Under the pieces are notes generated by a model. The model saw nothing but the letters and a program-made list of their open reading frames with translations. It made no database searches and was not told the origin of the DNA. This document shows positions 2,521 through 15,058 of a stretch of DNA of 60,101 nt, in pieces. The stretch lies in IMG/VR virus record IMGVR_UViG_3300020430_000017, positions 1 through 60,101 of that record; one strand, 5' to 3'. Within the stretch, counting starts at the first letter, position 1, and the number at the start of each line of letters is the position of its first letter. Source of the stretch: a virus. The position numbers were made by a program, and so were the translations under genes.

Positions 2521-2739
2521 CTACCAATTAACTGGATCATTCCCACATAGGGTTTCTGATATAGTGGCAGTTGATGTGCCCTTCATCATGCGCTCGTTGC
2601 GCGTTTGCTGTTCTTCTTCAAAAGCAAGGATCTTCCTTGCATCCTCGATGGTGCCGTGGTCGGGGCAAGCTGGACCGGCAGCTAGTTCGCAAAGGTCTTT
2701 AATGATTGCCAGCAGATCGGCACGGGATTGACGCTTCAT
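2521..2739 (-). CDS. Small hypothetical protein (72 aa)
   Basis: I choose the ATG at 2739 rather than a TTG or ATG further upstream because GGAG lies 8-10 bases before it (GGAGATTATTAAAC-ATG) and because this avoids overlap with the VWA gene ending at 2753. The product is a helical protein starting M-K-R-Q-S-R-A-D-L-L with no recognisable domain. It follows the VWA gene directly. Confidence 0.6.
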   Translation of the reverse strand: MKRQSRADLLAIIKDLCELAAGPACPDHGTIEDARKILAFEEEQQTRNERMMKGTSTATISETLCGNDPVNW

Positions 2740-2752
2740 GTTTAATAATCTC

Positions 2753-3958
2753 CTATTCATCGATGGCGATGATGCGTTCGTTGGTTTGAAAGTATGGGCG
2801 CTGAGCGTAGTACGTGGTAGTCATCCACATACGCTGAGCGTTGCAGTTCTTAGGCTTTGGAGCCATCAGGTCCGTAAGGACGATCATGCCGTCGAAACCG
2901 TTGGCGTTGCAGTGGTCAGTCGGCGGGTCGAAGTTAGTACCTCCGCATGCAACGCGCTCCCACTTACGACGCTCGCCCTTCTTCCAAGTGTAAACCTTGT
3001 CGGCGATTACCTCATCATCGAACGGCACGACAGTAAACTCGGCAAGTGCAGCCAGCTTGTCCAACTCAGAGTAGAAGGCGGCAAGCATCGAATCGGACAC
3101 GGAGCCAGACTGGTCGATGTAGATGCCGATGCGGGCAACACGGTTGACCTTCTTACCCGGATGGATGTAGCGGTAACGCTTGTTCAGGCGCTTGACGGTC
3201 GAGGACCGGTTAGACCGCTGAGTGGTCTTTACAAAGTAGCGCAGCACCTTCTTCCAATCGACCTTTGGCGTGATGCGCTCCATGATCTCCTGACGGGTCT
3301 GGCGACTAACGGAGCCCCATGAGTTAGCGCGTGCGGCTTCCTCGGCTGCTTTCTTGACTGCCTCTTTAAGACGCTCTTTGGCGATCTCATTCATGGTGTT
3401 GTCGCCTTGACCCTCTTCCCATCCAGAGTGATCGTCAAAGCTATCGCCGAAGTCGCGACCACCAGAAGAACCGTCACCGTCGCCGGACTCGCCGTTACCT
3501 TCGCCCTCTTCGCCTTCGCCTTCGTCCTTGTTCTGCTCATCCTTCAACTTGTTGAAGTACCACTCAGCAGACTTGCCAAGGGGCATATCCTCAAATGGAC
3601 CCTCACCGGGCAGACAGCACATGTCGGGCAACTCGCCCTGAAGGTGGGAGTTGATAGCGAGGTCAGTCGCGACGTTCCACAGCTTAGACATACCAGCTTC
3701 GGGAAGGCGACCAGTCACATGCTCAAAGACAAGGTGGTAAAATTCGTGTTTGAGAACACCCAATTTCTGCTTGTCGGTCAGACCCTCAAAGAACTCAGGA
3801 TTATAAAGCATAACGAACGTACCGCGATCCTTGTCCACCTTGACGCCAGCAGTCGGGATAGCGGTCGTAGCTCGCTTGTCGATGCGACGTGAAAGGGCGG
3901 CAAAGAATGGCTCATCCATCAGGAGTCGCGCAGTGTGCATGTTAAGGTTGAAGGACAT
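2753..3958 (-). CDS. DUF2201-like metallopeptidase/VWA protein
   Basis: A 401-residue protein with two parts. The N-terminal part carries H-E-F-Y-H at residues 71-75, a zincin HExxH motif, as in the putative metallopeptidase domain of the DUF2201 family. A low-complexity acidic, Gly-rich linker covers about 143-190. The C-terminal part is a von Willebrand A-like domain with the MIDAS motif D-Q-S-G-S at 282-286, a T in the C-G-G-T-N loop and a later D in V-L-T-D-L. In bacteria such proteins are encoded with MoxR ATPases, and here the MoxR gene follows after two small genes. It has its own phage promoter box 29 bp upstream. I infer a phage-encoded MoxR/VWA remodelling system; whether the peptidase site is active is unknown. 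Confidence 0.85.
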   Translation of the reverse strand: MSFNLNMHTARLLMDEPFFAALSRRIDKRATTAIPTAGVKVDKDRGTFVMLYNPEFFEGLTDKQKLGVLKHEFYHLVFEHVTGRLPEAGMSKLWNVATDLAINSHLQGELPDMCCLPGEGPFEDMPLGKSAEWYFNKLKDEQNKDEGEGEEGEGNGESGDGDGSSGGRDFGDSFDDHSGWEEGQGDNTMNEIAKERLKEAVKKAAEEAARANSWGSVSRQTRQEIMERITPKVDWKKVLRYFVKTTQRSNRSSTVKRLNKRYRYIHPGKKVNRVARIGIYIDQSGSVSDSMLAAFYSELDKLAALAEFTVVPFDDEVIADKVYTWKKGERRKWERVACGGTNFDPPTDHCNANGFDGMIVLTDLMAPKPKNCNAQRMWMTTTYYAQRPYFQTNERIIAIDE

Positions 3959-3986
3959 AGTTCTCTCTCTCTGTTTGGTACATCTA

Positions 3987-4016
3987 TTAGACGTACTAGC
4001 AGGGTCTTTTATTCAA
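3987..4016 (-). promoter_or_regulatory. Phage-specific promoter box, copy 3
   Basis: Minus strand TTGAAT, 19 bp ending TACG, TCTAAT, 29 bp before the ATG of the VWA gene. Two GATC sites sit in the A/T tract just upstream (about 4020-4046). The TCTAAT distance to the start codon matches several other copies. Confidence 0.8.
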
Positions 4017-4084
4017 AGAAAATCGATCTTTTTTGATCTTTTTTCAGATTTCTTAAATAACTAGGTTCAAAGCCGACAATGGAC

Positions 4085-4822
4085 CTACAGGTCATAGTCG
4101 AGCCAGAAGTGACTGCGGCTCTCGCCCTTCTCAAAGGCGTTGGCGACAAGCGAATCGGGCGGGTTCTTCCAGTCTGGACACTGTTCGACCCACTCTTCGT
4201 CAATCTGTGCTGCCATTTGCTCTGGCGTCAGCTTGCCAACGACCTCGATAGTCATAGCGTAGGTGCTCGTTTGCGCCTCGCGATGAGCAGGACTGTTGAT
4301 TGCAACACTGTGCTTGCGACCAACGCCGCTGATGGGGCGCAACGTCACCTTATAGTTAGGCTGGCGCTTGTGCGTAGACTGTAGATCAAGAGCCTCGACC
4401 ATCATCAGAGTGGATTGAGTGGAATAGCCATACTCCTTGTACTTGACCATGGCACCGATGCCGATGCCGTCTGTCAGCGCCCAATCGCGAACCTCTTGGC
4501 GAGTCTCGCGGGTCATGACCGCATAACGCTCTATGTCTTTCTTGAGGACCGGGCAAGTACGTCGATTGTGACCGTGATCCTTGCAGTAAGAGCACACGCG
4601 CCCGCGACTCTCATCGCGACGACCGCTCTTTTCGCCAGTCTCAGGGTTCACACCCGTCATCTTCGCGATCTGGCGTGCATAGTATTCGGTGTAACGTCCT
4701 TCGCCTTCTTTTTCTTTCTCAAGATTCCGTTGAATGCGTGCTAGACGCTCAGGACACGTACGCTTATTGTGACCGTACTCAAAGCAATAGCTGCAGCGAA
4801 CTCTACCGTTGTAATTACCCAT
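4085..4822 (-). CDS. Double zinc-knuckle protein with SH3-like tail
   Basis: This 245-residue protein has two CCHC zinc knuckles with the spacing Cx2Cx4Hx4C: C10, C13, H18, C23 and C77, C80, H85, C90. Zinc knuckles of this type bind single-stranded nucleic acid, often RNA. After the second knuckle comes G-I-G-A-M-V-K-Y at about 120, which resembles the start of the many M-K-V-G-D-L-V-R proteins of this region, suggesting a fused SH3-like barrel. A paralogue with the same layout lies at 14390-15058. It has its own phage promoter box 31 bp upstream. A role in host or phage RNA handling is inference. Confidence 0.8.
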   Translation of the reverse strand: MGNYNGRVRCSYCFEYGHNKRTCPERLARIQRNLEKEKEGEGRYTEYYARQIAKMTGVNPETGEKSGRRDESRGRVCSYCKDHGHNRRTCPVLKKDIERYAVMTRETRQEVRDWALTDGIGIGAMVKYKEYGYSTQSTLMMVEALDLQSTHKRQPNYKVTLRPISGVGRKHSVAINSPAHREAQTSTYAMTIEVVGKLTPEQMAAQIDEEWVEQCPDWKNPPDSLVANAFEKGESRSHFWLDYDL

Positions 4823-4959: not shown

Positions 4960-5238
4960 TTACCGGACAGAAAATGTCCGACCTGCAAGCTCTCCCGAAA
5001 AGGCAGGTTCAACCTCGATTTCATCGAGGGGCAACCAGCCAGTCCAGTGTTCACGTCCGCCCTTGCCATTGCTGGAGTGGCGCGTTTGCGATACCAGCAG
5101 AAGCGCGGCACGTCCGTCCATGCACCATACTGAGTTCTTTGCCATGGCTACCTTGAACAACGGTCCATGCTCACGGATGCGGTTCTTCGTGCGGCTGCAC
5201 GCTTTCTGGTTCCACGTTACTTTAATAAAATCAGCCAC
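4960..5238 (-). CDS. Small hypothetical protein (92 aa)
   Basis: A 92-residue basic protein with a GTG start at 5238, supported by GGAGGT five bases upstream. It overlaps the end of the previous gene by 8 bp. The N-terminus M-A-D-F-I-K-V-T-W and the central L-F-K-V-A-M-A-K-N-S-V-W-C-M-D-G look like beta strands, and W-T-G-W-L-P-L-D-E-I-E-V resembles the closing strand of the barrel proteins nearby. Membership of that family is possible but not clear. The last codons contain a small GGACA/TGTCC hairpin. Confidence 0.65.
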   Translation of the reverse strand: MADFIKVTWNQKACSRTKNRIREHGPLFKVAMAKNSVWCMDGRAALLLVSQTRHSSNGKGGREHWTGWLPLDEIEVEPAFSGELAGRTFSVR

Positions 5239-5470
5239 TTATGACCTCCATATCTCTTGGTAAATATCTTCGTTGCCATTCGCCCCGATGGATGCCGAGG
5301 AATTGAACCGTGAAAATCTCAGGTGGATACATCGGCATACCCTCTGAGGTTACGTGCCCTTGCATCACATAGTCACCGCGAGGTTTACCGACTTTAATAA
5401 TCAGACCCACCGCGCCAACTGGCACGCCGATGGATGCGCGTGTGATCTTTACTAAATTACCGACTTGCAT
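5231..5470 (-). CDS. SH3-like small protein (MQVGNLVK type)
   Basis: One of the expanded family of small beta-barrel-like proteins. It starts M-Q-V-G-N-L-V-K-I, where the G-(D/N)-L-V signature is typical of KOW/SH3-like first strands, and ends R-D-M-E-V-I-S-G, matching the L-x-V-I-S endings of its relatives. I chose the ATG at 5470, with GAGGTGG upstream, over a start 33 bp earlier. It overlaps the 34-residue peptide gene before it and the next gene after it. The function is unknown. Confidence 0.75.
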   Translation of the reverse strand: MQVGNLVKITRASIGVPVGAVGLIIKVGKPRGDYVMQGHVTSEGMPMYPPEIFTVQFLGIHRGEWQRRYLPRDMEVISG

Positions 5471-5561
5471 CAGCCACCTCGCCAGCAGTCTCAAGTGCAG
5501 CACCGATAAACAGGAACGGCATCGACATAACGATCAGAGTCTCAATCATGGTGATAATCAT
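5457..5561 (-). CDS. Mini membrane peptide (34 aa)
   Basis: This very short frame starts at an ATG that overlaps the stop of the preceding 25-residue peptide (ATGA). It encodes a hydrophobic helix with M-S-M-P-F-L-F-I-G-A-A-L followed by an acidic tail. It ends inside the start region of the SH3-like gene at 5470. The overlap on both sides and the hydrophobic composition suggest a real small membrane protein; no family is recognised. Confidence 0.5.
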   Translation of the reverse strand: MIITMIETLIVMSMPFLFIGAALETAGEVADASR

Positions 5562-5635
5562 GCAGACACCATCAGCAGAAGAAACGAAACGATACTAATC
5601 GACATAGGAATCAGGAATGGAATTGCTTCAAGCAT
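5558..5635 (-). CDS. Mini membrane peptide (25 aa)
   Basis: This is the first gene after the promoter box at 5664-5693. It has GAGAGAGG upstream of the ATG and encodes 25 residues that are almost entirely hydrophobic (M-L-E-A-I-P-F-L-I-P-M-S). The reading frame closes with TGA inside the next start codon. It could be a single-pass membrane peptide or a translated leader. Short length limits confidence. Confidence 0.5.
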   Translation of the reverse strand: MLEAIPFLIPMSISIVSFLLLMVSA

Positions 5636-5663
5636 ATGAACCTCTCTCTTTGTTGCTCATTTA

Positions 5664-5693
5664 TTAGACGTATGAGCGCATGGGTTTATTCAA
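5664..5693 (-). promoter_or_regulatory. Phage-specific promoter box, copy 5
   Basis: Minus strand TTGAAT, 19 bp ending TACG, TCTAAT, 29 bp before the ATG at 5635. The upstream A-run, TTGATC, T-run overlaps the stop codon of the gene ending at 5711. Confidence 0.8.
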
Positions 5694-5710
5694 AGAAAAG
5701 CGAAAAAAGA

Positions 5711-5911
5711 TCAACTTTTTTTAACGCTTGAAATCACTTTAATATCTTGTCGGCGAGCGGGCGAAACCACATTCTGACCCAGCGCGCCGAACCACAGCAC
5801 GTCTATGCCTGCATACCCATGGTTAAAGAAGCCGACCACGATACCGAGAACGGGTGGATCGGTCGGTGTCCACAGGACGAGATCCCCGACGCTGATAGGC
5901 TCGTTGCTCAT
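5711..5911 (-). CDS. SH3-like small protein (VGDLVLW type)
   Basis: I take the ATG at 5911, giving a 66-residue protein with I-S-V-G-D-L-V-L-W near the N-terminus, the family signature, and a D-I-K-V-I-S-S ending. The frame is open for another 111 bp upstream but that part lies over a different membrane-protein gene. Its stop codon forms part of the A/T tract upstream of the next promoter box. The function is unknown. Confidence 0.75.
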   Translation of the reverse strand: MSNEPISVGDLVLWTPTDPPVLGIVVGFFNHGYAGIDVLWFGALGQNVVSPARRQDIKVISSVKKS

Positions 5912-6029
5912 GTTTAATAAGTAGTCCATTCCAGTGCTTCCACGGGAAAACAGCCAACGCAACAACACAAAGCAGTGGCACAAGCCACAGCCCACTATCC
6001 AACAATGCAATCTGCCAATCACTCAACAT
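5823..6029 (-). CDS. Small single-pass membrane protein (68 aa)
   Basis: It begins with ATG at 6029, with GAGGTGG six bases upstream, and overlaps the end of the previous SH3-like gene. Residues about 12-30 (L-W-L-V-P-L-L-C-V-V-A-L-A-V) form a clear transmembrane helix, followed by a basic Arg-rich tail. The last 29 codons overlap the next gene in another frame, which lowers confidence in the C-terminus. It fits the pattern of tiny membrane proteins placed between the barrel genes. Confidence 0.45.
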   Translation of the reverse strand: MLSDWQIALLDSGLWLVPLLCVVALAVFPWKHWNGLLIKHEQRAYQRRGSRPVDTDRSTRSRYRGRLL

Positions 6030-6210
6030 TATCAACCACCTCTATCAAGTTTGTTTGAATCGGGCTTACCCGACCACCGAACCATGCGACCATCGCACAA
6101 GTATACGGGTTTGTGTCTTTGTCAAAGGTACGCATACCAAGGAACACACCGCGAGAGTTATTGAACGATGGGTGTGCGTTCTTGTTTCTTACTACATCAC
6201 CGACTTTCAC
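6019..6210 (-). CDS. SH3-like small protein (MKVGDVVR type)
   Basis: A 63-residue protein starting M-K-V-G-D-V-V-R-N, the family signature, with a strand-rich middle (G-V-F-L-G-M-R-T-F) and the closing N-L-I-E-V-V-D. It overlaps the upstream gene by 14 bp and the downstream membrane-protein gene by 11 bp, as in a tightly coupled operon. Confidence 0.75.
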   Translation of the reverse strand: MKVGDVVRNKNAHPSFNNSRGVFLGMRTFDKDTNPYTCAMVAWFGGRVSPIQTNLIEVVDNVE

Positions 6211-6376
6211 TGATAACTCTCAATTGTGAATGATGACCAGAATCAAGCTCCAGAGTATCCATCCAGCGAATGATCGGGTACTTGTTGCCACAGCCCTCGT
6301 ATACTTCTTTGAAGCCAAGCACAACAGCCATTGCGCGCGGGTTTCTTGCTGATCGAACCAAATCACCGACTTTCAT
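6197..6376 (-). CDS. SH3-like small protein (MKVGDLVR type)
   Basis: A 59-residue protein from the ATG at 6376, chosen because GGAG lies eight bases upstream; a TTG two codons earlier is possible. The signature is M-K-V-G-D-L-V-R-S-A-R-N, with strands A-M-A-V-V-L-G-F-K and ending L-R-V-I-S-E. The compact, all-beta pattern fits a single SH3-like or KOW-like barrel. Confidence 0.78.
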   Translation of the reverse strand: MKVGDLVRSARNPRAMAVVLGFKEVYEGCGNKYPIIRWMDTLELDSGHHSQLRVISESR

Positions 6377-6378
6377 GA

Positions 6379-6729
6379 TCAATACTCCACCGAACGAGTG
6401 ACGTAAATATGGTCAAAGCCCCAGCCCCGAACCTCGTTGTCATCCAGTTCTTCGCCAGTGCGAACGAACCGATAATGATCTTCCATGTCCTCAGCATCGC
6501 AATCGTTCATGAATTCCTCAAGGGCTGCAACCTCTTTGAAAGTATCGTACCACTTGATGTGATCCCAATGAAAGAGGACAGCGCCGTCATCGTAGTTGTC
6601 GATGCGCTTGTCAGCTTCCGAATAGCACAATTTGCGCGCCATTTCACAAGTAGCGAGCGCATTGAGAAACAACGGCAACGCCTCTTTGCCGACAACCAAG
6701 ACAACTTCCGAACGATAACCCACGTACAC
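6379..6729 (-). CDS. Conserved phage hypothetical protein (116 aa)
   Basis: It starts M-Y-V-G-Y-R-S-E-V-V-L-V-V and ends with D-D-N-E-V-R-G-W-G-F-D. I recognise this kind of layout (Y-R-S-E-V at the start, F-V-R-x-G-E-x-x-D-D-x-E near the end) from uncharacterised proteins in many phages, but no function is known to me. It is the first gene after its own promoter box and ends just where the next start codon begins. Confidence 0.75.
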   Translation of the reverse strand: MYVGYRSEVVLVVGKEALPLFLNALATCEMARKLCYSEADKRIDNYDDGAVLFHWDHIKWYDTFKEVAALEEFMNDCDAEDMEDHYRFVRTGEELDDNEVRGWGFDHIYVTRSVEY

Positions 6730-6754
6730 CTCTCTCTTTTCGTTGGTACATCTA

Positions 6755-6784
6755 TTAGACGTATGACGTTCAGGGTTTATTCAA
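6755..6784 (-). promoter_or_regulatory. Phage-specific promoter box, copy 6
   Basis: Minus strand TTGAAT, 19 bp ending TACG, TCTAAT, 26 bp before the ATG at 6729. The A-run/TTGATC/T-run just upstream contains the stop codon of the preceding gene. Confidence 0.8.
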
Positions 6785-6801
6785 AGAAAATTAAAAAAAG
6801 A

Positions 6802-7017
6802 TCAACTTTCTTTAGGTCCAGACAAGAATTCTACATCGTTACAAGCGACTGAGAAGATGTCACCATACCGTGGACCAGTGGTAACGACTACGGAAATCGC
6901 CTCCAAGCCATACACAAGATAATGATCGCGAACCAAAGCCAAGGCACCGAACAGGCTGTCACCTACATGATTCGGTCTGCCTCCAAAGGTTAATCTTACT
7001 AAGCTACCCGGATGCAC
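6802..7017 (-). CDS. SH3-like small protein (MHPGSLVR type)
   Basis: A 71-residue member of the barrel family starting M-H-P-G-S-L-V-R-L. Later strands include L-F-G-A-L-A-L-V-R-D and the closing D-V-E-F-L-S-G. It overlaps the previous gene by 14 bp and ends in the A/T tract before the promoter at 6755-6784. Confidence 0.72.
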   Translation of the reverse strand: MHPGSLVRLTFGGRPNHVGDSLFGALALVRDHYLVYGLEAISVVVTTGPRYGDIFSVACNDVEFLSGPKES

Positions 7018-7201
7018 TGATCACCTTTAGGTATCCGCTGTGTTCCGTTGTCGTCTTTAGATCCGCCCACAACACTCGGAATCGTCGATTCTTAACACCG
7101 ACACTCGGACCAAGATCCTCCATGATAATGCCGGGGTTGGCATATCTCTCTTTGCCTCCGAAGAAACCAGACACAAAGTTTACTAAATCACCTACTTTCA
7201 T
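7004..7201 (-). CDS. SH3-like small protein (MKVGDLVN type)
   Basis: A 65-residue protein starting M-K-V-G-D-L-V-N-F and ending L-K-V-I-S-A-S-G. Between them, N-P-G-I-I-M-E-D and R-R-F-R-V-L-W read as strands. I prefer the ATG at 7201 over a start four codons earlier; it overlaps the stop of the 31-residue membrane peptide. Confidence 0.75.
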   Translation of the reverse strand: MKVGDLVNFVSGFFGGKERYANPGIIMEDLGPSVGVKNRRFRVLWADLKTTTEHSGYLKVISASG

Positions 7202-7293
7202 GACAGAAACCAAGTCATCGCAAACGAAAACAGGAACACACCCACAACTATAACAATGGTTATTAACAACGGTCCAATTTCATCGTCCCTCAC
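7198..7293 (-). CDS. Mini membrane peptide (31 aa)
   Basis: A GTG start at 7293 overlaps the stop of the SWIM gene (GTGA), with GGAAGG upstream. The peptide has an acidic start, R-D-D-E, then a long hydrophobic helix I-T-I-V-I-V-V-G-V-F-L-F-S-F. Its stop overlaps the ATG of the next gene. Both junctions and the composition argue for a real single-pass membrane peptide. Confidence 0.5.
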   Translation of the reverse strand: MRDDEIGPLLITIVIVVGVFLFSFAMTWFLS

Positions 7294-7601
7294 TGAACAC
7301 CTTCCTTTATCTCTTCGATATGCCGACACTTACGACGAAAACCATAGCCAGTGCATGTGCATGAATACAAACCATCGGACAGCTTGACAGTATAGGTATT
7401 GCCTTTGCTACCATTGACTTGCCAAGCCTGCTCACCGGCTGCTGACTGGCGTTCGCGAGGTTTATAAACCATGTACTCGGATAACTCATCGAGAGTAGTA
7501 CCAGCAGGAACCTCGACCCACACAGAGCCAGCGATCCCATATCGGATGCCGGTATGACTAGTGAACAATGCGGGCGGTATACTGACCTCTACTGGACTCA
7601 T
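7290..7601 (-). CDS. SWIM zinc-finger protein
   Basis: A 103-residue protein whose C-terminus carries C81, C83, C92 and H94, the CxCx(n)CxH signature of SWIM zinc fingers, preceded by Y-T-V-K-L-S-D-G-L-Y-S. SWIM domains bind DNA or proteins and occur alone in some phage proteins. The N-terminal 60 residues are not recognisable. It is coupled to genes on both sides by overlaps. Confidence 0.75.
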   Translation of the reverse strand: MSPVEVSIPPALFTSHTGIRYGIAGSVWVEVPAGTTLDELSEYMVYKPRERQSAAGEQAWQVNGSKGNTYTVKLSDGLYSCTCTGYGFRRKCRHIEEIKEGVQ

Positions 7602-7948
7602 GCTTTCCCCTTGTGGTTGGCGTTGCCTGCATTGTACGCAACGTGACGCATCGGACGATTGCCGATAGTTGTGTTAGAACCTGAAAGATGGCAGGATTTG
7701 CCCTTGTGGAAGCCTGTGACGGCTTTCCAAGCCTTGGAGTATGCGTCCCTGTCCTCGTCGCTCTCAAAGGCGACAATGGAGATTCCAGCGGCTTTACCGT
7801 CGCCTGCCTGCAGACCGAGATACTTGACAGCAGTTTCGGTACCCAACTCTTCAACACAGTCAGGACACTCATTGATCTTGCCGCCTGCCTGCTTCTTGGC
7901 AGTCGAGTTAGGGTCGAACATAATTTCACAGTGAATGCATTCCCTCAC
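7598..7948 (-). CDS. Zinc-ribbon-like small protein
   Basis: A 116-residue protein with two CxxC pairs, C4/C7 and C28/C31, that could bind one zinc ion as a ribbon. The remainder includes A-A-G-I-S-I-V-A-F-E-S-D and a basic, His-rich tail. It starts with ATG overlapping the upstream stop (ATGA at 7945-7948) and ends overlapping the SWIM gene. The function is unknown. Confidence 0.7.
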   Translation of the reverse strand: MRECIHCEIMFDPNSTAKKQAGGKINECPDCVEELGTETAVKYLGLQAGDGKAAGISIVAFESDEDRDAYSKAWKAVTGFHKGKSCHLSGSNTTIGNRPMRHVAYNAGNANHKGKA

Positions 7949-8403
7949 GATACCAACTCCAGATCACGGGTGGCAATGTATGAGTCGCTACGGTCAATGC
8001 CGATCCAGTCGATGCAGACGCTATCACTAGCCTCTTTAGTAACCATGCCAGTCAAGCCAGCAAAGCCCCAACGCTGAGCGCGCTTGCTCTGCTTGCCGCG
8101 CACAAGCTGACCAGCCTTGAACTTGCAGGGTGGCGGCTTCATCGAGTGAAGCAGTTGTGTCAGGTTGTCGCGGAATGATCCTGCGTGATAGTCAGTATAC
8201 ATACAGCTTTCGTCACCGACCCGACGACGGTGCCAGTTGCAAGCATCAGCTTCCATAGCATCGGCATCCATGCCGCCGCGATGACCATTCGCAAGGAACG
8301 AACCTACTTCATTCTCATACTGGAACCAGTATCGGCATCCGTCATACTGGACCTTAACGCCAAGGTACTTCTCGATCTTCTTGATTGCTTTTCCGACTTT
8401 CAT
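7945..8403 (-). CDS. Two-domain protein with SH3-like C-terminus
   Basis: A 152-residue protein. The first 90 residues form an unknown domain starting M-K-V-G-K-A-I-K-K-I-E-K-Y. The last 60 residues begin F-K-A-G-Q-L-V-R-G and end T-R-D-L-E-L-V-S, which is a full copy of the barrel family found as solo proteins around it. This fusion shows that the barrel is a domain that can be joined to others. It starts 32 bp after a phage promoter box. Confidence 0.75.
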   Translation of the reverse strand: MKVGKAIKKIEKYLGVKVQYDGCRYWFQYENEVGSFLANGHRGGMDADAMEADACNWHRRRVGDESCMYTDYHAGSFRDNLTQLLHSMKPPPCKFKAGQLVRGKQSKRAQRWGFAGLTGMVTKEASDSVCIDWIGIDRSDSYIATRDLELVS

Positions 8404-8434
8404 ATATGTCCTCTCTATCAGTTGGTGACATTAG

Positions 8435-8463
8435 TTAGACGTACAACTTTCAGATTTATTCAA
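8435..8463 (-). promoter_or_regulatory. Phage-specific promoter box, copy 7
   Basis: Minus strand TTGAAT, 18 bp ending TACG, TCTAAC, 32 bp before the ATG at 8403. The upstream A/T tract lacks GATC (it reads GATA) and overlaps the stop of the Smr gene. Confidence 0.75.
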
Positions 8464-8470
8464 AGAAAGT

Positions 8471-8704
8471 TCAAAAAAGTTGATATTTTTTCGGAGGCTC
8501 CACAACGATCAGTGCGCCAAGGTTATAGTCGGACTCTTCATAAGCCGCAAGCTCATAGCGGGTCAGCACTTGCCTGACCAAATCTTTCATTCGTCGCGAG
8601 TTGCCAGTGATAATCTTGAAAGGAGTTTCATTTTTCCAAGCAAAATCAAGTACTTGCGACTCCACATCCTCATGCTTTACGCCATGCAAATCAAGCGTCT
8701 GCAT
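8471..8704 (-). CDS. Solo Smr-domain protein
   Basis: A 77-residue protein that is a bare Smr (small MutS-related) domain: L-D-L-H-G at residues 4-8, then K-I-I-T-G-N-S at 30-36, and N-L-G-A-L-I-V near the end. In bacteria Smr domains are nucleases that cut DNA or RNA, including mRNA on stalled or collided ribosomes. The usual G-x-G loop is T-G-N-S here. A role in cutting host or phage RNA is inference. It overlaps the previous barrel gene by 14 bp. Confidence 0.8.
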   Translation of the reverse strand: MQTLDLHGVKHEDVESQVLDFAWKNETPFKIITGNSRRMKDLVRQVLTRYELAAYEESDYNLGALIVVEPPKKYQLF

Positions 8705-8921
8705 GGATCACTTCCAAATCTCTTATGGGCAATCTGAGGATCTGCCCATCGAGCAGCACCTCCGCAAAGGATTCCTTCGGTGCCTTTGACCAATCAATCT
8801 TCTTGCCTCTCTCAGAGGTATTCCACAGCTTGTGCTGAAATACCCGCTTGACCAAGCCCACGGTATCGGGACGTTGCCGACCCACCATAGCTTTCCACCT
8901 TACCAAGTCACCCACTTTCAT
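8691..8921 (-). CDS. SH3-like small protein (MKVGDLVR type)
   Basis: A 76-residue member of the family starting M-K-V-G-D-L-V-R-W and ending R-D-L-E-V-I-H. The middle reads T-V-G-L-V-K-R-V-F and A-E-V-L-L-D-G as strands. It overlaps the D12 methylase stop by 4 bp (ATGA), so it is translated with the candidate restriction-modification pair. Confidence 0.78.
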   Translation of the reverse strand: MKVGDLVRWKAMVGRQRPDTVGLVKRVFQHKLWNTSERGKKIDWSKAPKESFAEVLLDGQILRLPIRDLEVIHADA

Positions 8922-9781
8922 TCTGGCTCTCCTATCATCAAAATCTCGACTGCTTTCTTTGCAGTGAATGTCCCATCATCATGCTTCTTCCTGCGACCGG
9001 CTGTGTACGTGGTATCAAACTTTACTAAATGATTGCTACCTGTCCGATCCTCAAAGAAATTGTCACCCACATCGCGGTTGGACATAAGAACATAAGCTCC
9101 TAACTCCTTAGAATCATTGAGGAAATCAATCACTTGTTGCTGCAGCCCATCATCAAAGTCAACGCCATACTGAGTGAACGAACCACGATACGGAGGGTCG
9201 AGGAAAACGTAAGAACCACGCTGGATATGGGATAGTGTGTCATTAAAGTCACCGGATAGCAGTGTGCAGCTTTGTAGCGCAGCATGCCATTCCATCACAT
9301 TGTCACGATCATAAACCTTGTCCTTCTGGTTCAACAGACCGCACGGTGTTCCAAAGCGACCGTTGGTGTTCTGGTTGATCTGCCAGATACCATTGAATCC
9401 TGTTTTCATTAGAAAGTACAGTGTTGCAGTCTCCTGAATATCTCCCCACTTGTCGAACTCATACGCATGCTCATTACGCAAAGCATAATAAAACTCCTTT
9501 CGACCGGGCTTATCAAGCGATAGGTAACGTTCCGACAGGCAATCAAGGTGCTCTGTGAACTCTTCAACGTCATCGCGCACCGCTGAATAGATACGCATGA
9601 TAGATTCATTTGAGTCATTCAGCACAAATTCAGCATCAGGATTCTTCTGATATGCCCAAACGAACATAGCACCAGCACCGACAAACGGTTCGACATAATG
9701 ATCGAACGTGTCTGGTAGATACTCGGTGTACTTTTTAATCATGCGAGTCTTACCACCCGCCCACATAAACAATGGCTTCAT
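8918..9781 (-). CDS. D12-class DNA adenine methyltransferase
   Basis: A 287-residue protein of the D12 (Dam-like) group of N6-adenine methyltransferases. It has W-A-G-G-K-T-R at the start, P-F-V-G-A-G-A-M-F for AdoMet binding, and the catalytic F-L-D-P-P-Y near residue 195. These enzymes methylate adenine in short sites such as GATC; the specificity here cannot be read from the sequence. Its ATG overlaps the stop of the MunI-like nuclease gene (ATGA), so the two are co-translated. That pairing suggests a restriction-modification system, although a protective phage methylase is also possible. Confidence 0.9.
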   Translation of the reverse strand: MKPLFMWAGGKTRMIKKYTEYLPDTFDHYVEPFVGAGAMFVWAYQKNPDAEFVLNDSNESIMRIYSAVRDDVEEFTEHLDCLSERYLSLDKPGRKEFYYALRNEHAYEFDKWGDIQETATLYFLMKTGFNGIWQINQNTNGRFGTPCGLLNQKDKVYDRDNVMEWHAALQSCTLLSGDFNDTLSHIQRGSYVFLDPPYRGSFTQYGVDFDDGLQQQVIDFLNDSKELGAYVLMSNRDVGDNFFEDRTGSNHLVKFDTTYTAGRRKKHDDGTFTAKKAVEILMIGEPE

Positions 9782-10302
9782 ACAATCTCCATGATCTTGC
9801 CAGCAACGTCATCAATGTTCGCAAAATCAGGTTCCATTATCGCATAGTTTGAATCTTCAAGCAAGAGATTTATTTCGTCTTGATACTTTTGCCCTTGGAA
9901 CGTGTGTCCTGAGAACACAAGAAAGAACGGTTCCTCTACCAGCGTGGGATCGTCGCGGCGCACTCGTCGTTTTAGCGACTCGGACAGATACTTGTAAACT
10001 CGCTCATGAGCGTTGCCGCCATTGTTGCCAGTTTTCTTTTCGATGTAAAGGCACTTACCGGTAACCTTATTAATTACCTTTAGGTCGAGCACGATACCGC
10101 GACCCTCGGAATAGACCTGCAGCTTTGGCGGCTTGGTTACAACCTCATAATGCGCTGGCAGCGCGCTGCTCAGAATGGTGGCAAATGCATTCTCACCGCC
10201 CATGCCAGTCTTAGCAGCCTGATCTTGCCACTTCTTGCGGTCAGACAGAGCGCTGTGGTGGCTCCAATAGTTACGGTCGCTCGGATAATCGTGATAACTC
10301 AA
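9778..10302 (-). CDS. MunI-like type II restriction endonuclease candidate
   Basis: A 174-residue protein with a TTG start that overlaps the previous stop. It has D73 in V-L-D-L-K, and E88 and K90 in Y-I-E-K-K-T-G. This D-x14-E-x-K spacing equals the D83/E98/K100 active site I recall for MunI. It is followed by G-N-A-H-E-R-V-Y-K-Y, a conserved-looking segment. It is shorter than MunI (about 200 residues). The downstream overlapping gene is an adenine methylase, the normal partner of such an enzyme. If confirmed, this is a phage-borne restriction-modification pair. The family call rests on motif spacing and context. Confidence 0.68.
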   Translation of the reverse strand: MSYHDYPSDRNYWSHHSALSDRKKWQDQAAKTGMGGENAFATILSSALPAHYEVVTKPPKLQVYSEGRGIVLDLKVINKVTGKCLYIEKKTGNNGGNAHERVYKYLSESLKRRVRRDDPTLVEEPFFLVFSGHTFQGQKYQDEINLLLEDSNYAIMEPDFANIDDVAGKIMEIV

Positions 10303-10520
10303 TCTTCTTCCTCTCCCAAGTTTAATGTTTCTTCATGCACTGTCAACAGTTCGCCAGTTTGAAGCAAGCTGATTACCCAGCCCTTTTCAAAGCTGGGTCC
10401 GTCTTTCTGATATTCTTCTGGTGTTTGTGCGACTGCTTCAACATCGCACTCATCCAAAATCAACGCTGGACCTTGATCTAGCCAGTTATAAACTCTGCCA
10501 ACCTTAATCGTCTTATCCAC
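10299..10520 (-). CDS. SH3-like small protein (KVGRVYNW type)
   Basis: A 73-residue acidic protein with T-I-K-V-G-R-V-Y-N-W at the start and strands P-A-L-I-L-D-E and W-V-I-S-L-L. It looks like a diverged member of the barrel family with an acidic C-terminal tail. Its stop overlaps the TTG start of the nuclease gene, so it is part of the same coupled unit. Confidence 0.68.
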   Translation of the reverse strand: MDKTIKVGRVYNWLDQGPALILDECDVEAVAQTPEEYQKDGPSFEKGWVISLLQTGELLTVHEETLNLGEEED

Positions 10521-10839
10521 TTACGGGCTCCATGTTACGCCATGCTTCCGGCGCGACCTTCATTTTCTTACCAGCGAAAGTCACATATGCTTCGTGCCTC
10601 GCTTCGTAGGTACTGGCACTCAACTTGTCTTGTCTTGCAACCTTGCCCAAGTAGATAATCGGACTATCAAACAGTTTTCCACTTGATAGGCGTCTGAAGC
10701 GATGTCTATGATTTGCCCTGCGGCACTCCAATTGCTGATATGTTCCGTCGCCTACATAGTGTGCAGCAGACCAGACCGAAAAGTAAAACCCTTGCTTCGG
10801 TCTGATCATCATACCTTCTTTTAGTTCACTCACTCTCAT
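10513..10839 (-). CDS. SH3-like small protein (MRVSELKEGM type)
   Basis: A 108-residue basic protein from the ATG at 10839. It starts M-R-V-S-E-L-K-E-G-M-M-I-R-P-K, a variant where the strand follows a short helix, and contains S-P-I-I-Y-L-G-K-V and H-E-A-Y-V-T-F-A-G-K. It overlaps both neighbours. The function is unknown; a barrel-family link is likely but weaker than for its neighbours. Confidence 0.68.
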   Translation of the reverse strand: MRVSELKEGMMIRPKQGFYFSVWSAAHYVGDGTYQQLECRRANHRHRFRRLSSGKLFDSPIIYLGKVARQDKLSASTYEARHEAYVTFAGKKMKVAPEAWRNMEPVSG

Positions 10840-11047
10840 TAGCAACCTCACTTAGAAACTTCAAATCCTGATGTATAAATGTGGACTCGCTCACGTAACG
10901 CCCGCCAAAGTTGACAGGCGGCGTCCATGCAACTTTATAGCACGGCATGTTCTTGAACATTACGCTTTCATTCACTTCAGTGATGATGCCCCTGCGACCA
11001 TGGAAGTCACTAAACGCGCCAGTATACTCCACCATGCTGCCGATCAT
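10826..11047 (-). CDS. SH3-like small protein (MIGSMVEY type)
   Basis: A 73-residue protein starting M-I-G-S-M-V-E-Y-T, followed by R-R-G-I-I-T-E-V-N and C-Y-K-V-A-W-T-P-P, and ending Q-D-L-K-F-L-S. The order of strands matches the other barrel proteins. It overlaps the gene before and after it. Confidence 0.72.
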   Translation of the reverse strand: MIGSMVEYTGAFSDFHGRRGIITEVNESVMFKNMPCYKVAWTPPVNFGGRYVSESTFIHQDLKFLSEVANESE

Positions 11048-11346
11048 GACGCACCCCACAAATCAGGAATGCCCTCGGGTAACTCACCTTCGACCATGCC
11101 GCCATGCCTTGCGATGACCGCAAGGATCACATCACGCGGCACCCATGCGTACACAGTGCCAGTCGGATCGGTAGGATCTTCTGCCCACTGCCTCAACATA
11201 GGTTCTTCACGGTTCGGGAACCCAATCTCAGCCGACGTGTACGGTCCTGTATCGTTACGCGGGTCGCAGTATGCGCCCTGATTTGCTTGTACTGACATGC
11301 GGAAACCATCAGCACACACAACTGTTTCATTCTTCTTCTTGAACAT
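11044..11346 (-). CDS. Conserved phage hypothetical protein (100 aa)
   Basis: The protein contains M-S-V-Q-A-N-Q-G-A-Y-C-D-P-R-N, then G-P-Y-T-S-A-E-I-G-F-P and V-Y-A-W-V-P-R-D-V-I. I associate this arrangement with an uncharacterised protein widespread in phages, expressed from accessory regions. No catalytic motif is visible. It overlaps both neighbours and so belongs to the same operon. Confidence 0.75.
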   Translation of the reverse strand: MFKKKNETVVCADGFRMSVQANQGAYCDPRNDTGPYTSAEIGFPNREEPMLRQWAEDPTDPTGTVYAWVPRDVILAVIARHGGMVEGELPEGIPDLWGAS

Positions 11347-11557
11347 TCATTCTCTCCAAAAACATTTCATGGATTCTCATATGATGCCCATTCAACATCT
11401 TAACATTATAAATGGACGTAAACTTTCTCTTAGGGTCAACGTTTGTGCCGGTAGCACTCCACTCGGACAGCACCAGCGCAAAGCGTTTGTCTCCCATTCC
11501 TTCCTCATGCACGCCGTCTTTGATCCTTACCAGATCACCGGGCTGGAACTTGCTCAC
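11327..11557 (-). CDS. SH3-like small protein (PGDLVRIK type)
   Basis: A 76-residue protein with F-Q-P-G-D-L-V-R-I-K-D-G at the start, a very clear family signature, then R-F-A-L-V-L-S-E-W and Y-N-V-K-M-L-N-G. The C-terminus is acidic. It overlaps the next gene by 20 bp. Confidence 0.78.
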   Translation of the reverse strand: MSKFQPGDLVRIKDGVHEEGMGDKRFALVLSEWSATGTNVDPKRKFTSIYNVKMLNGHHMRIHEMFLERMNVQEEE

Positions 11558-11796
11558 TTTTCTGCCTTTATGACTGTGCAGTCTGCCACGTTGAGCAGCC
11601 TGACTGCATTCCAGTCGTTCAATGGTCGAACCTTCACAATGCTACCAACAGAGATCTCGACAACCAAACCGTGTTCCGGCTCCATCGACTCTTCACATAG
11701 CGCGTCAGGCTTCCACACATCATAGCACACCATGTCGCCGACCTTAACTTTTTTTGATGTCGAAAGGTTATTAATATGTGGTCTAGCTGGTTTCAT
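11554..11796 (-). CDS. SH3-like small protein (KVGDMVCY type)
   Basis: An 80-residue protein with an N-terminal extension of 16 residues before K-V-K-V-G-D-M-V-C-Y. Later strands are H-G-L-V-V-E-I-S-V-G and D-C-T-V-I-K. The stop overlaps the next ATG. Confidence 0.72.
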   Translation of the reverse strand: MKPARPHINNLSTSKKVKVGDMVCYDVWKPDALCEESMEPEHGLVVEISVGSIVKVRPLNDWNAVRLLNVADCTVIKAEK

Positions 11797-12064
11797 TGGG
11801 ACTCAACAATCTCACGTTATGCGAGTGAATGTTATAGTATGACCGACCGTTAGACAAGACCTTAAGGATCTGGTAGTATGGTGATGCACCGGCTGGCATG
11901 CCTCCACCATTTGACGTTAGCTTTACGCAGTGCCAATCTGATGCCTTTAGTACAACCGCTTGACCGACAGGACACTGAACGAACATGCGGTCGTCAGCGT
12001 TTACAACCTCGATGAGATCGCCTGTACGGTAAGCACGGTCAAGTTTGCGAATCGGAGTGCTCAT
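11783..12064 (-). CDS. SH3-like small protein (RTGDLIEV type)
   Basis: A 93-residue protein with Y-R-T-G-D-L-I-E-V-V after a short leader, then Q-A-V-V-L-K-A-S-D-W and Y-Y-Q-I-L-K-V-L, ending N-V-R-L-L-S. It is one of the longer solo barrel proteins. Overlaps of 4 and 14 bp tie it to its neighbours. Confidence 0.72.
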   Translation of the reverse strand: MSTPIRKLDRAYRTGDLIEVVNADDRMFVQCPVGQAVVLKASDWHCVKLTSNGGGMPAGASPYYQILKVLSNGRSYYNIHSHNVRLLSPNETS

Positions 12065-12294
12065 GCCTCTCCAGTAACCAAGCCGTCAATTTGCTTGACT
12101 GATTGGCTCAAGAAACTCTCAATGAGAAATCGATCTGCAAGCGATTGTGGGTCATCCTTTCCCTCCAGCGCGGCAAGTTTCTCTGCCATACTGAACCACA
12201 TCGAGGATTGCACACAGTTCTCACCGAACTCTGCAGCCTCTACATGGGCTTGCTCAAAAGGTGTAAGTTTAATGTCACGTACTTGGCTAGTCAT
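12061..12294 (-). CDS. Small helical hypothetical protein (77 aa)
   Basis: A 77-residue protein starting M-T-S-Q-V-R-D-I-K-L-T-P-F-E, with helices H-V-E-A-A-E-F-G-E and M-A-E-K-L-A-A-L-E. It is unlike the barrel proteins and I recognise no family. The ATG overlaps nothing upstream but the stop overlaps the next start (ATGA). Confidence 0.65.
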   Translation of the reverse strand: MTSQVRDIKLTPFEQAHVEAAEFGENCVQSSMWFSMAEKLAALEGKDDPQSLADRFLIESFLSQSVKQIDGLVTGEA

Positions 12295-12303
12295 GTTCTC
12301 TCC

Positions 12304-12657
12304 TTAGCTAGCGTAGCGGATACCATAATTGGTAGTGGCATTCATGCCGTTAGAACTATCGCAGACGTTACCGCGAATAGCAGATGGACCTTTGGTGTTG
12401 GGTGCCTTCCAAGTTGCAGGCTTGAAGATAGCACCGTCAGACTTACGAACAAAGCCGTACACAGAACAGTTGATACCCAAGCCCTCACCCTCTTCACGCA
12501 CCACCTTCCAGTACACGCGACCCGGATGAACCGTGATCTTAGGGGGCTTAAGGTTTGAATAGTTAGTTGAGTAATACTCATTGACCTTTTGTTGAACCTT
12601 CTTTACAAAGGTTTCAAAGGCATATTCGATTTCGACTTGACTACGTTGAGTGTCCAT
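12304..12657 (-). CDS. Conserved phage hypothetical protein (117 aa)
   Basis: From the ATG at 12657 (GGAG upstream) this protein has R-V-Y-W-K-V-V-R, then V-Y-G-F-V-R-K-S-D-G-A-I-F and K-P-A-T-W-K-A-P. This K-P-A-S/T-W-K-A-P feature is one I associate with a common uncharacterised phage protein. It is the first gene after its own promoter box, 29 bp downstream. Confidence 0.78.
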   Translation of the reverse strand: MDTQRSQVEIEYAFETFVKKVQQKVNEYYSTNYSNLKPPKITVHPGRVYWKVVREEGEGLGINCSVYGFVRKSDGAIFKPATWKAPNTKGPSAIRGNVCDSSNGMNATTNYGIRYAS

Positions 12658-12685
12658 ATAGTTCTCCTTTTTGATGCTCACTACG

Positions 12686-12715
12686 TTAGACGTACAGGGG
12701 TCGAGTTTTATTCAA
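12686..12715 (-). promoter_or_regulatory. Phage-specific promoter box, copy 8
   Basis: Minus strand TTGAAT, 19 bp ending TACG, TCTAAC, 29 bp before the ATG at 12657. The upstream tract is a simple A-run that overlaps the stop of the preceding gene, without GATC. Confidence 0.78.
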
Positions 12716-12731
12716 AGAAAAGTGAAGTTTT

Positions 12732-13025
12732 TTAATAATCGTCTGAAAGCGTGCTGTTAAGGACATAATCAATGTAGTCCTCTGGGCATTTCATGATGAT
12801 AAATCGCCAACCCATCCATTTAGAATCCCACAACTCATTCAACAGGGGTTCATCGAGGGGAGCACTCGGGTTCTCTACCTCAAGCCACAGCACCAAGTGT
12901 GTACCTCCGTCGTCGCTCTCAAACTTAACGTCAAATCGTCCGTCCCAAATGCCCGCAACGTGCTTGCGAAGTGCGCGTTCTGCCTCATCCTTTGGTGACT
13001 TTTCCCCCAGTGCGAATTTAGCCAT
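12732..13025 (-). CDS. Small hypothetical protein (97 aa)
   Basis: A 97-residue acidic protein with R-F-D-V-K-F-E-S-D-D-G-G-T and H-L-V-L-W-L-E-V-E as alternating strands, and a GGAGAGAG ribosome binding site. I recognise no family. It lies after a 36 bp gap that contains one copy of the TAAGTAGTTTC repeat. Confidence 0.68.
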   Translation of the reverse strand: MAKFALGEKSPKDEAERALRKHVAGIWDGRFDVKFESDDGGTHLVLWLEVENPSAPLDEPLLNELWDSKWMGWRFIIMKCPEDYIDYVLNSTLSDDY

Positions 13026-13061
13026 GTCTCTCTCCTATGGTTGGCTATAAGTAAGTAGTTT

Positions 13062-13517
13062 CTAAAACGGAACTTGAAGGTCACCGGGAGCAGAAGTTAG
13101 CGGAAACATGGTCCACGCTTGCGGGCTCCACACTGCGGCTTCGGGGATGGTTTCTTTAGCGAGTCTAACGTGGTTTACAATTTCCTCCATTGATGGGCAT
13201 GCTGGGTCAAAATAATGTTTGCAAAGATAATCATAGTTATAGTCAACAATAATAAGAGCGCCGCCGATGTTGAGCCCTATCTGTACCCAGTTCGACAGTA
13301 ACCACAGGCGACTGCCATTAGCGACAAACGATTCAGAACGACTCTGGATGCGCTCATGGTCAGGGTGAGGCTGGTAGGCTTCGGGATATGGCGAGTATGG
13401 CGGCTGCGCTGAGTATCCCTCTGCCCATGCATTGATGACGCCACGAACCTTGTCGAGATCAGTATAATAATGATCTGGCACCGAACAGTGTTTTAGGTCC
13501 ACTCTAACCAGCGGCAT
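13062..13517 (-). CDS. Hypothetical protein (151 aa)
   Basis: A 151-residue protein rich in aromatic residues: Y-S-A-Q-P-P-Y-S-P-Y-P-E near the start, W-V-Q-I-G-L-N-I-G-G-A-L-I-I-V in the middle. The hydrophobic middle is too short and broken for a sure membrane helix. The start abuts the stop of the previous gene, so it is in the same operon. I recognise no family. Confidence 0.68.
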   Translation of the reverse strand: MPLVRVDLKHCSVPDHYYTDLDKVRGVINAWAEGYSAQPPYSPYPEAYQPHPDHERIQSRSESFVANGSRLWLLSNWVQIGLNIGGALIIVDYNYDYLCKHYFDPACPSMEEIVNHVRLAKETIPEAAVWSPQAWTMFPLTSAPGDLQVPF

Positions 13518-13903
13518 TATTTACGCCTCTTATCTGCGGCACCCAGCTTCTTAAAGAAGCGACCCTCATACCATTCGCCAGTTTCCACCTCACCCATTGA
13601 GGATAAGATGCTGTCACGTTCCCACGCGGCAAAGCCACTGTGTTTTCGCCCAAGGCTGCACATATCTTCGTAGGTCATCTTTATCATGTGGCGATACACG
13701 GGCATATGAATTGGCTTAGGTTTCAAGCCAGTGCGTAACCACTTAATACGAACGGAGTTCGCGTATTTTTTCGGCGCAGATGCCTCCCAAGGTTGGCTTG
13801 GTCGCCACAAATCCGCAGCTTCTACAACTAAACCCATAGTCTCGTATCCTCTTCCACCCACATTGTACCATACCAGATCGCCGATTGTCAATCGTTTTGT
13901 CAT
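13517..13903 (-). CDS. SH3-like protein with C-terminal extension
   Basis: A 128-residue protein. The first 60 residues start M-T-K-R-L-T-I-G-D-L-V-W-Y and continue M-G-L-V-V-E-A-A and V-R-I-K-W-L, which is the barrel pattern. The last 60 residues are basic and helical with no recognised domain. It overlaps the previous gene by 4 bp (ATGA). Confidence 0.72.
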   Translation of the reverse strand: MTKRLTIGDLVWYNVGGRGYETMGLVVEAADLWRPSQPWEASAPKKYANSVRIKWLRTGLKPKPIHMPVYRHMIKMTYEDMCSLGRKHSGFAAWERDSILSSMGEVETGEWYEGRFFKKLGAADKRRK

Positions 13904-14163
13904 GTGCTCTCCTTTGGTCCCGCGCTTGACAGGACTTCAAATGAATACTTGGAAGTGTCTAAAATATGATACTCGCATGAGCGCGGTATGTAAACTACAA
14001 CGGTTGGCGATTCATCATTGGCAGTTTCGACAATGAGCCCGTAACAATAAACAGGTTGATGTGGCCATGCGTTGCCGGTATCGTCGGCAGTGTAAACAGC
14101 ATACGATATAACCCACCGAACGTAATCGCCGGGGTATAGCTTATGTTGCGCGCAATAAGTCAC
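13900..14163 (-). CDS. SH3-like small protein (PGDYVRW type)
   Basis: An 87-residue protein with a GTG start, containing L-Y-P-G-D-Y-V-R-W-V-I and Y-C-Y-G-L-I-V-E-T-A, ending F-E-V-L-S-S. The strand order again matches the family. Translation may be coupled to the 43-residue gene whose stop lies three bases upstream. Confidence 0.68.
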   Translation of the reverse strand: MTYCAQHKLYPGDYVRWVISYAVYTADDTGNAWPHQPVYCYGLIVETANDESPTVVVYIPRSCEYHILDTSKYSFEVLSSAGPKEST

Positions 14164-14319: not shown

Positions 14320-14349
14320 TTGGACGTATAAGGTGTATCATTTATTCAT
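14320..14349 (-). promoter_or_regulatory. Phage-specific promoter box, copy 9 (variant)
   Basis: Minus strand ATGAAT, 19 bp ending TACG, TCCAAC, 22 bp before the ATG at 14298. It differs from the others by one base in each element, and there is no A/T tract upstream. Confidence 0.6.
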
Positions 14350-14389: not shown

Positions 14390-15058
14390 TTATATTACCC
14401 TCGAATCTTTATCTTTGTTCTCAAACAGTGCGTCGATGCCGCTTTCTCCACTAATCCAATCGGCGGGCATGCCGAAATCGTATGATGGTGAAACTACCTC
14501 CCACCCATTAATCTTTAATGATGGCTCACTTAGTGTGTGCGGGACTGTCAAGTAAACCCGACGACCGACGTTAGATATTTGTTGGACTAAAACACTCCGC
14601 TCCCCACCATTGACATGATTCATGTTTTCCCATTCGTGCCTTAAGACCATCCACAACCCACCGCTTTCGGGATTATAGTGTCTATGGAGTCCGTGACGCT
14701 TCTTCATGCGAACCATGGCACCAATACCAAGACCAAGTAGCTTGATGTTTGCATAGTAGAGGCTGCGCCATGCAGCATTCTTCATCACTGCTGCCTCTCT
14801 ATCATGAGCCAACACCACGCATGTTCTACGGTTGTGACCTAACGTGTGACAGTATGTACAACTACGGGGCATTTTAGCACGTCGCGATGCGCTCTTTGAA
14901 ATAGAAACTTTATTAGCCTCATGCTCTTTGACTAACGGATGATCCTCACCGTGTGCTTCTTTGATGCGCTCAATGTCGGCGCGCAATTGTGGACATGTCT
15001 GTCGATTGTGCCCTTTCGTGTGACAATAACTACACACTACTGTTTTTCCGCTGCCCAT
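14390..15058 (-). CDS. Double zinc-knuckle protein, paralogue
   Basis: A 222-residue paralogue of the protein at 4085-4822. Its knuckles use C9, C12, H17, C22 and C67, C70, H75, C80, again Cx2Cx4Hx4C, each inside a near-identical C-x-Y-C-x4-G-H-N-R-x-T-C context (the family shares H-N-K/R-x-T-C). Then comes G-L-G-I-G-A-M-V-R-M-K, a barrel-like start. The copy-to-copy divergence outside the knuckles is large, so this is an old duplication. A single-stranded nucleic acid ligand is likely from the knuckle family. Confidence 0.8.
   Translation of the reverse strand: MGSGKTVVCSYCHTKGHNRQTCPQLRADIERIKEAHGEDHPLVKEHEANKVSISKSASRRAKMPRSCTYCHTLGHNRRTCVVLAHDREAAVMKNAAWRSLYYANIKLLGLGIGAMVRMKKRHGLHRHYNPESGGLWMVLRHEWENMNHVNGGERSVLVQQISNVGRRVYLTVPHTLSEPSLKINGWEVVSPSYDFGMPADWISGESGIDALFENKDKDSRVI

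Follow-up and report, generated by a model that had tools for sequence, protein, structure and literature searches.

How can a phage carry a row of tiny genes whose protein products differ strongly in their bodies and begin and end so much alike? The question is raised by an accessory region of the virus record IMGVR_UViG_3300020430_000017, of which a stretch of 60,101 bp (the window) was analysed; nearly all of its likely genes lie on the minus strand. A first-pass annotation, made from the letters alone, had described here, mostly between positions 5231 and 14163, an expanded family of small SH3-like proteins with M-K-V-G-D-L-V-like starts and L-x-V-I-S ends. The open reading frames (ORFs) that it listed do exist, the small solo proteins with such starts are present on the minus strand of this region, and the start/stop overlaps between them are found in the window. 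We propose that the region is one phage's shuffling, junction-coupled array of solo SH3-like cassettes. As a whole, this is the best explanation and somewhat more probable than its negation, and the architecture of the array taken by itself is very likely. The conserved termini are largely a dual-coded translation junction; the annotation had overlooked this, as well as the fact that the genes behave like exchangeable cassettes.

The junction spans about 33 nt, has the consensus TTGGAGGTNATCA-RTG-AAAGTCGG-TGA-YYTRGT and codes for both genes at once, as L-E-V-I-(S/N)-E-S-R-stop within the frame of the upstream gene and as M-K-V-G-D-L-V within that of the downstream one. Herein, the codons for L-E-V contain a GGAGGT ribosome site (Shine-Dalgarno sequence) 5 nt upstream of the next start, and the upstream stop codon TGA sits inside the G-D codons of the next gene (GGTGAY). 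Whether the upstream tail holds S or N depends on whether the next start is GTG or ATG. The canonical form in the window, GTGAAAGTCGGTGA, is found at 6197-6210 (minus strand), where the start of 6019-6210 meets the stop of 6197-6376.

Scanning viral contigs with the junction pattern gave at least 120 stretches; with a narrower pattern the total was 12, and as 8 of these had come up before, about 180 stretches are probable for the broader one. An overlap of exactly 14 nt is seen in 499 of the 661 neighbouring family pairs of the fetched loci and still in 344 of 504 once the junctions of the scan pattern are removed. In baited loci, it occurs in 82% of family pairs, about 40% of mixed pairs, and 4% of non-family pairs, and in bait-free loci (the window, its relatives, and contigs found via ribonucleotide reductase) 24 of 38 neighbouring family pairs have it. 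A ribosome site of at least 4 nt is present in 305 of 344 junctions (bait-free: 29 of 32), and glutamate is encoded by GAG at a ratio of 162:3 in the junctions versus 999:1227 (45%) in the bodies. Against isolate phages, blastn with the junction returned short matches only. The one match inspected, in Salmonella phage Det7, lies antisense in a gene of unknown function and looks like chance.

The protein tails follow the neighbouring gene. Of 476 genes overlapped by a following start, 381 carry E-S-R-like tails, compared with 8 of the 328 that have no such overlap and none of the 38 bait-free genes that lack it. Moreover, unrelated genes of SWIM, Smr, and RibA-like types bear the cassette tail where a cassette comes next: the tail is NESR, DASR, or DANR in those relatives of the SWIM-like gene 7290-7601 that precede a cassette and a sequence of their own in the others, and one Smr relative has the C-terminus ISESR. 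We thus read the E-S-R extension as the start of the next gene written in the other frame and not as a protein motif.

Does the family hold up independently of these ends? A profile of 355 proteins, none of them from a contig closely related to the window, was searched against every ORF in the window and in its relatives as well as against reversed decoys, and the window members score above every decoy. When the profile is stripped of the terminal motifs, family loci are still ranked at the top, with weak E-values. Alignment by hhalign sorted the listed genes into 12 firm members (≥90%), 4 ambiguous ones (49-71%), and 4 unsupported ones (<10%), with all 11 neighbouring genes used as controls below 3%. 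The claim of at least 14 members thus stands for 12, with up to 4 more ambiguous, whereas 4 listed genes (10299-10520, 10513-10839, 20337-20558, and 4960-5238) have no family support. The last but one of these is also one of three proposed outliers; the other two, at 23609-23860 (48.9%) and 30516-30797 (71%), lie beyond the cluster and are ambiguous. Similarly, the L-x-V-I-S end applies to the canonical members but not to the remaining ones. The strong divergence that had been noticed is real, as pairwise searches scarcely connect the members; neither single-sequence PHROGs scans of window members nor tblastn of two members against isolate phages gave anything useful. Pfam, PHROGs, and NCBIfam contain no family that spans the member set, and no ORF carries two barrel copies.

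For the fold, one canonical member (6197-6376) was modelled with AlphaFold2 using an alignment with 99 others. It is predicted to be a five-stranded barrel (strands at residues 6-9, 16-24, 32-38, 44-46, and 52-56) with a predicted local distance difference test score (pLDDT) of 91.7, and L-x-V-I-S forms its last strand. The check by structure prediction that had been proposed gave a confident result here, but the model of the ambiguous 11783-12064 reached a pLDDT of 49.5 and is too poor to read. Foldseek with the barrel returned KOW, PWWP, and Tudor matches with template-modelling scores of about 0.65-0.74. Profile and fold searches agree, albeit weakly, on the KOW domains of SPT5 and NusG, PWWP, and Tudor, the best matches in the PDB being weak (E 0.005 by profile and 0.08 by fold). 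The KOW model PF00467 itself is matched by 3 of 100 members at E ≤0.1 (best 0.0014), none of them from the window. The canonical member is thus a KOW/Tudor/SH3-type small barrel according to its model, and the proposed SH3-like fold and family expansion are supported by profile, hhalign, predicted barrel, and Foldseek matches alike.

Cassettes do not keep the same company. The 1065 family genes fall into 519 clusters, 324 of which are singletons, and coupled rows reach 13 genes. Cassettes up to 98% identical are found beside different neighbours in different contigs. Among 146 pairs from different loci with at least 80% body identity, the next cassette differs in 80 (29 clusters, 46 loci). At such joins, DNA identity drops from about 0.85 on the shared side to about 0.26 beyond the junction, in either direction. 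The first genes of rows retain the junction codons GTC and GGT above body usage, as expected if they were formerly internal in a row. The median ratio of nonsynonymous to synonymous substitution rates (dN/dS) is 0.21, a rough value since the median dS is near 1; it indicates purifying selection and therefore genes that are real and constrained. Four things can be taken as shown from the sequences: that the family exists, that a canonical member is predicted to have this fold, that the junction is real, and that neighbours were exchanged with breakpoints at it.

These observations can be combined as follows. Each cassette would encode one stand-alone barrel of SH3-like (KOW/Tudor-type) fold, about 50-80 residues long, and the junction of about 33 nt would terminate one protein, bring in the ribosome, and begin the following protein. 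Since it holds ribosome site, start, and stop, any cassette may follow any other cassette or an unrelated gene and be translated. Translation of neighbours would be coupled at -14, promoter-like repeats (see below) would drive separate blocks, and the junction could serve as homology for the phage's own recombination. The window encodes a UvsX-like recombinase (47945-49081, minus strand; phrog_97, E 3e-55), a candidate agent of cassette exchange, as well as an exonuclease, which makes recombination over the junction possible. The proteins themselves would form a repertoire of binders with a fast turnover, most likely directed during takeover against targets that vary among hosts, either defences or host machinery.

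Critically speaking, several points weigh against this explanation. Breakpoints at the junction are equally expected if selection just preserves whole genes. Overlaps beyond -4 nt reduce the efficiency of coupling (review PMC12548453), and most of the work may therefore be done by the strong ribosome site. The family seeds were chosen by their terminal motifs, which makes the body-only model and the fold the more independent checks, and several contigs and loci are related, so that the pair counts are not independent. In the window, only one of six gene pairs with a 14-nt overlap is fully canonical (6197-6210). The five degenerate ones, all on the minus strand, are found at 11783-11796 (between 11783-12064 and 11554-11796), at 10826-10839 (GAGGT 6 nt ahead of the start of 10513-10839), at 8691-8704 (cassette 8691-8921 running into the Smr-like gene 8471-8704, whose Smr domain scores below the Pfam cut-off), at 7004-7017 (variant GTGCATCCGGGTAG, with the GTG start of 6802-7017, the TAG stop of 7004-7201, and G-S for G-D), and at 5457-5470 (a tiny upstream ORF, 5457-5561, ending in ADASR and overlapping the start of cassette 5231-5470). 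Finally, the searches yielded no functional hit, and the evidence comes from sequences of uncultured phages.

What, then, keeps the junction in place? It may have been kept as both recombination site and translation coupler, with the phage's own recombinase swapping cassettes in frame and the clade sharing an open and large pool of binders directed at host targets that change; we give this somewhat less than an even chance. The system would then be free of an integrase, for which no aimed search was made. The most serious rival explanation is that the junction serves compact coupled translation only and that cassettes move by illegitimate or flank-driven recombination followed by selection for whole genes. 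Selection for intact genes does predict breakpoints at gene borders, and translation alone can account for the strong ribosome site and the exact spacing. Row heads, on the other hand, retain the junction codons without an upstream partner, as if cassette and junction had moved together, and the shared 33 nt or so together with the UvsX-like recombinase make homologous exchange plausible. Coupling only is a real contender, whose chances we put somewhat below even.

The function of the barrels is a separate matter. A role in counter-defence or host takeover is nearly as probable as not in our view; no match to a named inhibitor was obtained in Pfam, PHROGs, NCBIfam, or the top fold matches. The many binding specificities suggested at first are compatible with a conserved barrel core over which loop positions vary (near 4 bits of entropy), with the 519 clusters, and with the purifying selection. 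Alternatively, the KOW-like barrels could be a nucleic-acid-binding set acting jointly on RNA polymerase, ribosomes, or DNA and not on varied host targets. KOW, PWWP, and Tudor being the best remote matches speaks for this, but those matches are weak, and the body net charge (mean -1.1, with 33% of bodies at ≤-3 and 16% at ≥+3) is spread so widely that one shared DNA- or RNA-binding role is unlikely. We consider such a set improbable, an outside candidate with about a one-in-five chance.

Still less probable is an origin by tandem head-to-tail duplication with divergence in place, where the junction is a duplication relic kept for its start and stop and nothing is exchanged between phages. Within-locus paralogues do occur (23 pairs in 15 loci, with body identity up to 92%), but most row neighbours have no detectable body relatedness, the majority of clusters are singletons, nearly identical cassettes have different neighbours across contigs, and unrelated genes occupy junctions of the identical kind. 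Duplication plus exchange is likely, and duplication alone is insufficient. Finally, the idea that the C-terminal V-I-S-E-S-R acts as a signal in the protein, such as one for degradation or for binding a partner, can be dismissed almost entirely: V-I-S, being the last strand of the model and able to remain without an overlapping gene (5711-5908 ends in K-V-I-S with none behind it), is both structural and coding, but E-S-R-like ends are nearly gone where no start overlaps, and unrelated proteins acquire the tail when a cassette follows.

The shuffling array is not confined to the window, and its carriers form a group. Two relatives, L005 and L086, were reached through other genes (a search with a single cassette as query was unsuccessful), and both show the corresponding cluster, in L086 as a row of canonical SH3-like genes. 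Homologues of the firm window members are found for 6 of 12 in L086 and 8 of 12 in L005, several canonical members have one in neither, and for several window cassettes, relatives of the body occur in distant contigs. Canonical starts number 2 to 20 per contig in all 32 contigs, confined to one strand within each, and a reversed control pattern matched in none of the 32. A DnaE of the window's type is encoded in 15 of 17 contigs tested (13 at 66-76% identity and 2 at 44%), and the T4-type capsid protein Gp23 in 21 of 32; Gp23 has no match in the window. The window is probably a fragment of a longer genome, as the relatives continue past its right end and a 185-kb contig with Gp23 carries a DnaE 76% identical to that of the window. 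The nearest isolate phages by DnaE reach only about 31% identity, and the array carriers make up a clade of uncultured phages that encode DnaE. The sole hint of a marine origin comes from the names of the metagenome-assembled genomes (MAGs) in which such contigs occur, e.g., TMED69. In 84,980 species genomes, three junction stretches were found; the two that were read (L225 and L226) resemble phage contigs binned into MAGs. The former, filed under a Flavobacteriales MAG and viral in appearance, holds at 390-983 a RibA-like gene (labelled from motifs) with the tail IISESR, which overlaps a cassette by 14 nt.

The gene cassettes of integrons are likewise small exchangeable genes lined up in one reading direction, and short conserved boundary sequences at module borders permit exchange in lambdoid phages. 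The window array resembles both: its small genes are exchangeable and unidirectional as well, and its border sequences are likewise short, held in common, and allow exchange. Unlike in integrons, its border codes in both neighbours, with no attC-type site outside the gene. Lambdoid boundaries separate whole modules, whereas here each small gene bears a border that is ribosome site, start, and stop at once. In T4-type phages, the PeSL mobile regulatory cassettes (Arbiol 2010 and Comeau 2014, as summarized in PMC4503421) are promoter-terminator stem-loop elements; short, conserved, and located at gene borders, they allow accessory genes to be shuffled as modules. As far as that summary describes them, they differ from the window element, which lies inside a coding overlap without intergenic DNA and is tied to one protein family; its borders are 14-nt coding overlaps and not an intergenic promoter with a terminator stem-loop. 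Translational coupling also places the downstream start and ribosome site within the upstream gene, but the enriched spacings (-4, -1, and -8; PMC12548453) do not include a fixed -14 tied to one family. Modular shuffling at conserved borders is thus already known, and what is new is the border moved inside overlapping coding sequence.

The barrel itself is common. Small SH3/Tudor-like barrels are given as the largest fold clusters exclusive to viruses of bacteria (PMC12487901), a fold class that includes the window family; the main text of that study, as far as searched, mentions neither genomic arrays nor such a junction. KOW of SPT5 and NusG, PWWP, and Tudor are found within larger proteins, whereas the barrel of the window family stands alone. 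The earlier statement that no such system has been described is therefore to be limited: the fold is very common in phages, and no paper on such an array was located in the literature searched, where coverage of subscription journals and preprints is slight.

For one class of genes in uncultured phages, the proposed array explains how a phage can gain, lose, and rearrange many tiny genes with translation intact, and it accounts for the apparent conservation of these proteins' ends. Conserved protein termini may thus be disguised ribosome sites and start codons, which calls for caution. A simple DNA signature also allows hundreds of candidate host-interaction proteins to be collected from viromes, and the question how phages build accessory repertoires becomes directly testable.

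Along the minus strand, the firm members of the window can be listed with their hhalign values. The SH3-like gene 13900-14163 (90.8%) is syntenic with orthologues in L086 and L005 and is followed, with a 4-nt overlap, by 13517-13903 (91.5%), an SH3-like N-terminal part with an extension. After the possible member 11783-12064 (57.8%, ambiguous) come the SH3-like genes 11554-11796 (90.6%), 11327-11557 (96.2%), and 10826-11047 (96.5%). The canonical cassette 8691-8921 (MKVGDLVR...DLEVIHADA; 97.9%) has relatives among the hits in 6 non-kin loci, and 7945-8403 is a two-part protein with an SH3-like C-terminal part (95.5% over residues 96-152). Two further canonical cassettes, 7004-7201 (MKVGDLVN...LKVISASG; 97.5%) and 6197-6376 (MKVGDLVR...LRVISESR; 98.4%), enclose the ambiguous 6802-7017 (MHPGSLVR...VEFLSGPKES; 60.3%, N-terminal 9 residues only). 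The canonical 6019-6210 (MKVGDVVR...LIEVVDNVE; 96.6%) has a body relative in L177. Of the last two SH3-like cassettes, 5711-5908 (96.8%; probable start ATG at 5911) has a relative elsewhere in L005 (19113-19322), and 5231-5470 (MQVGNLVK...MEVISG; 97.4%) has a body relative in L157.

A promoter-like repeat, TGAATAAA-N10-14-TACGTC, has 9 exact matches in the window versus 0 in 100 shuffles, all on the minus strand (434, 2032, 3990, 5667, 6758, 8438, 12689, 14323, and 47927); an earlier fixed-spacing pattern had no match there. Five lie in the array region, at 14323-14348 (with N12), 12689-12714, 8438-8462, 6758-6783, and 5667-5692. The repeat occurs in the relatives too and stands solely at block starts, which suggests that it marks separate transcription blocks.

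Within the array region, a gene for a D12-class N6-adenine methyltransferase (8918-9781) shares 4 nt with one that matches the MunI restriction enzyme (9778-10302), the two possibly forming a phage-borne type II restriction-modification pair; its counterpart in L086 lies at 2657-4035. AATT occurs 130 times in the whole window versus about 266 expected by base composition, and GATC is not depleted. The array is flanked by two related proteins (4085-4822 and 14390-15058) with repeated C-x-Y-C-x-H-N-R-x-T-C knuckles, their relatedness being seen via a common hit in G004. Further away, an AAA ATPase adjoins a DUF2201 metallopeptidase/VWA-like protein (850-1950 and 2753-3958), a MoxR/VWA-like pair that is absent in the sequenced parts of G003, G004, G006, and G009, and 24505-26085 is a phage-encoded GroEL-like chaperonin.

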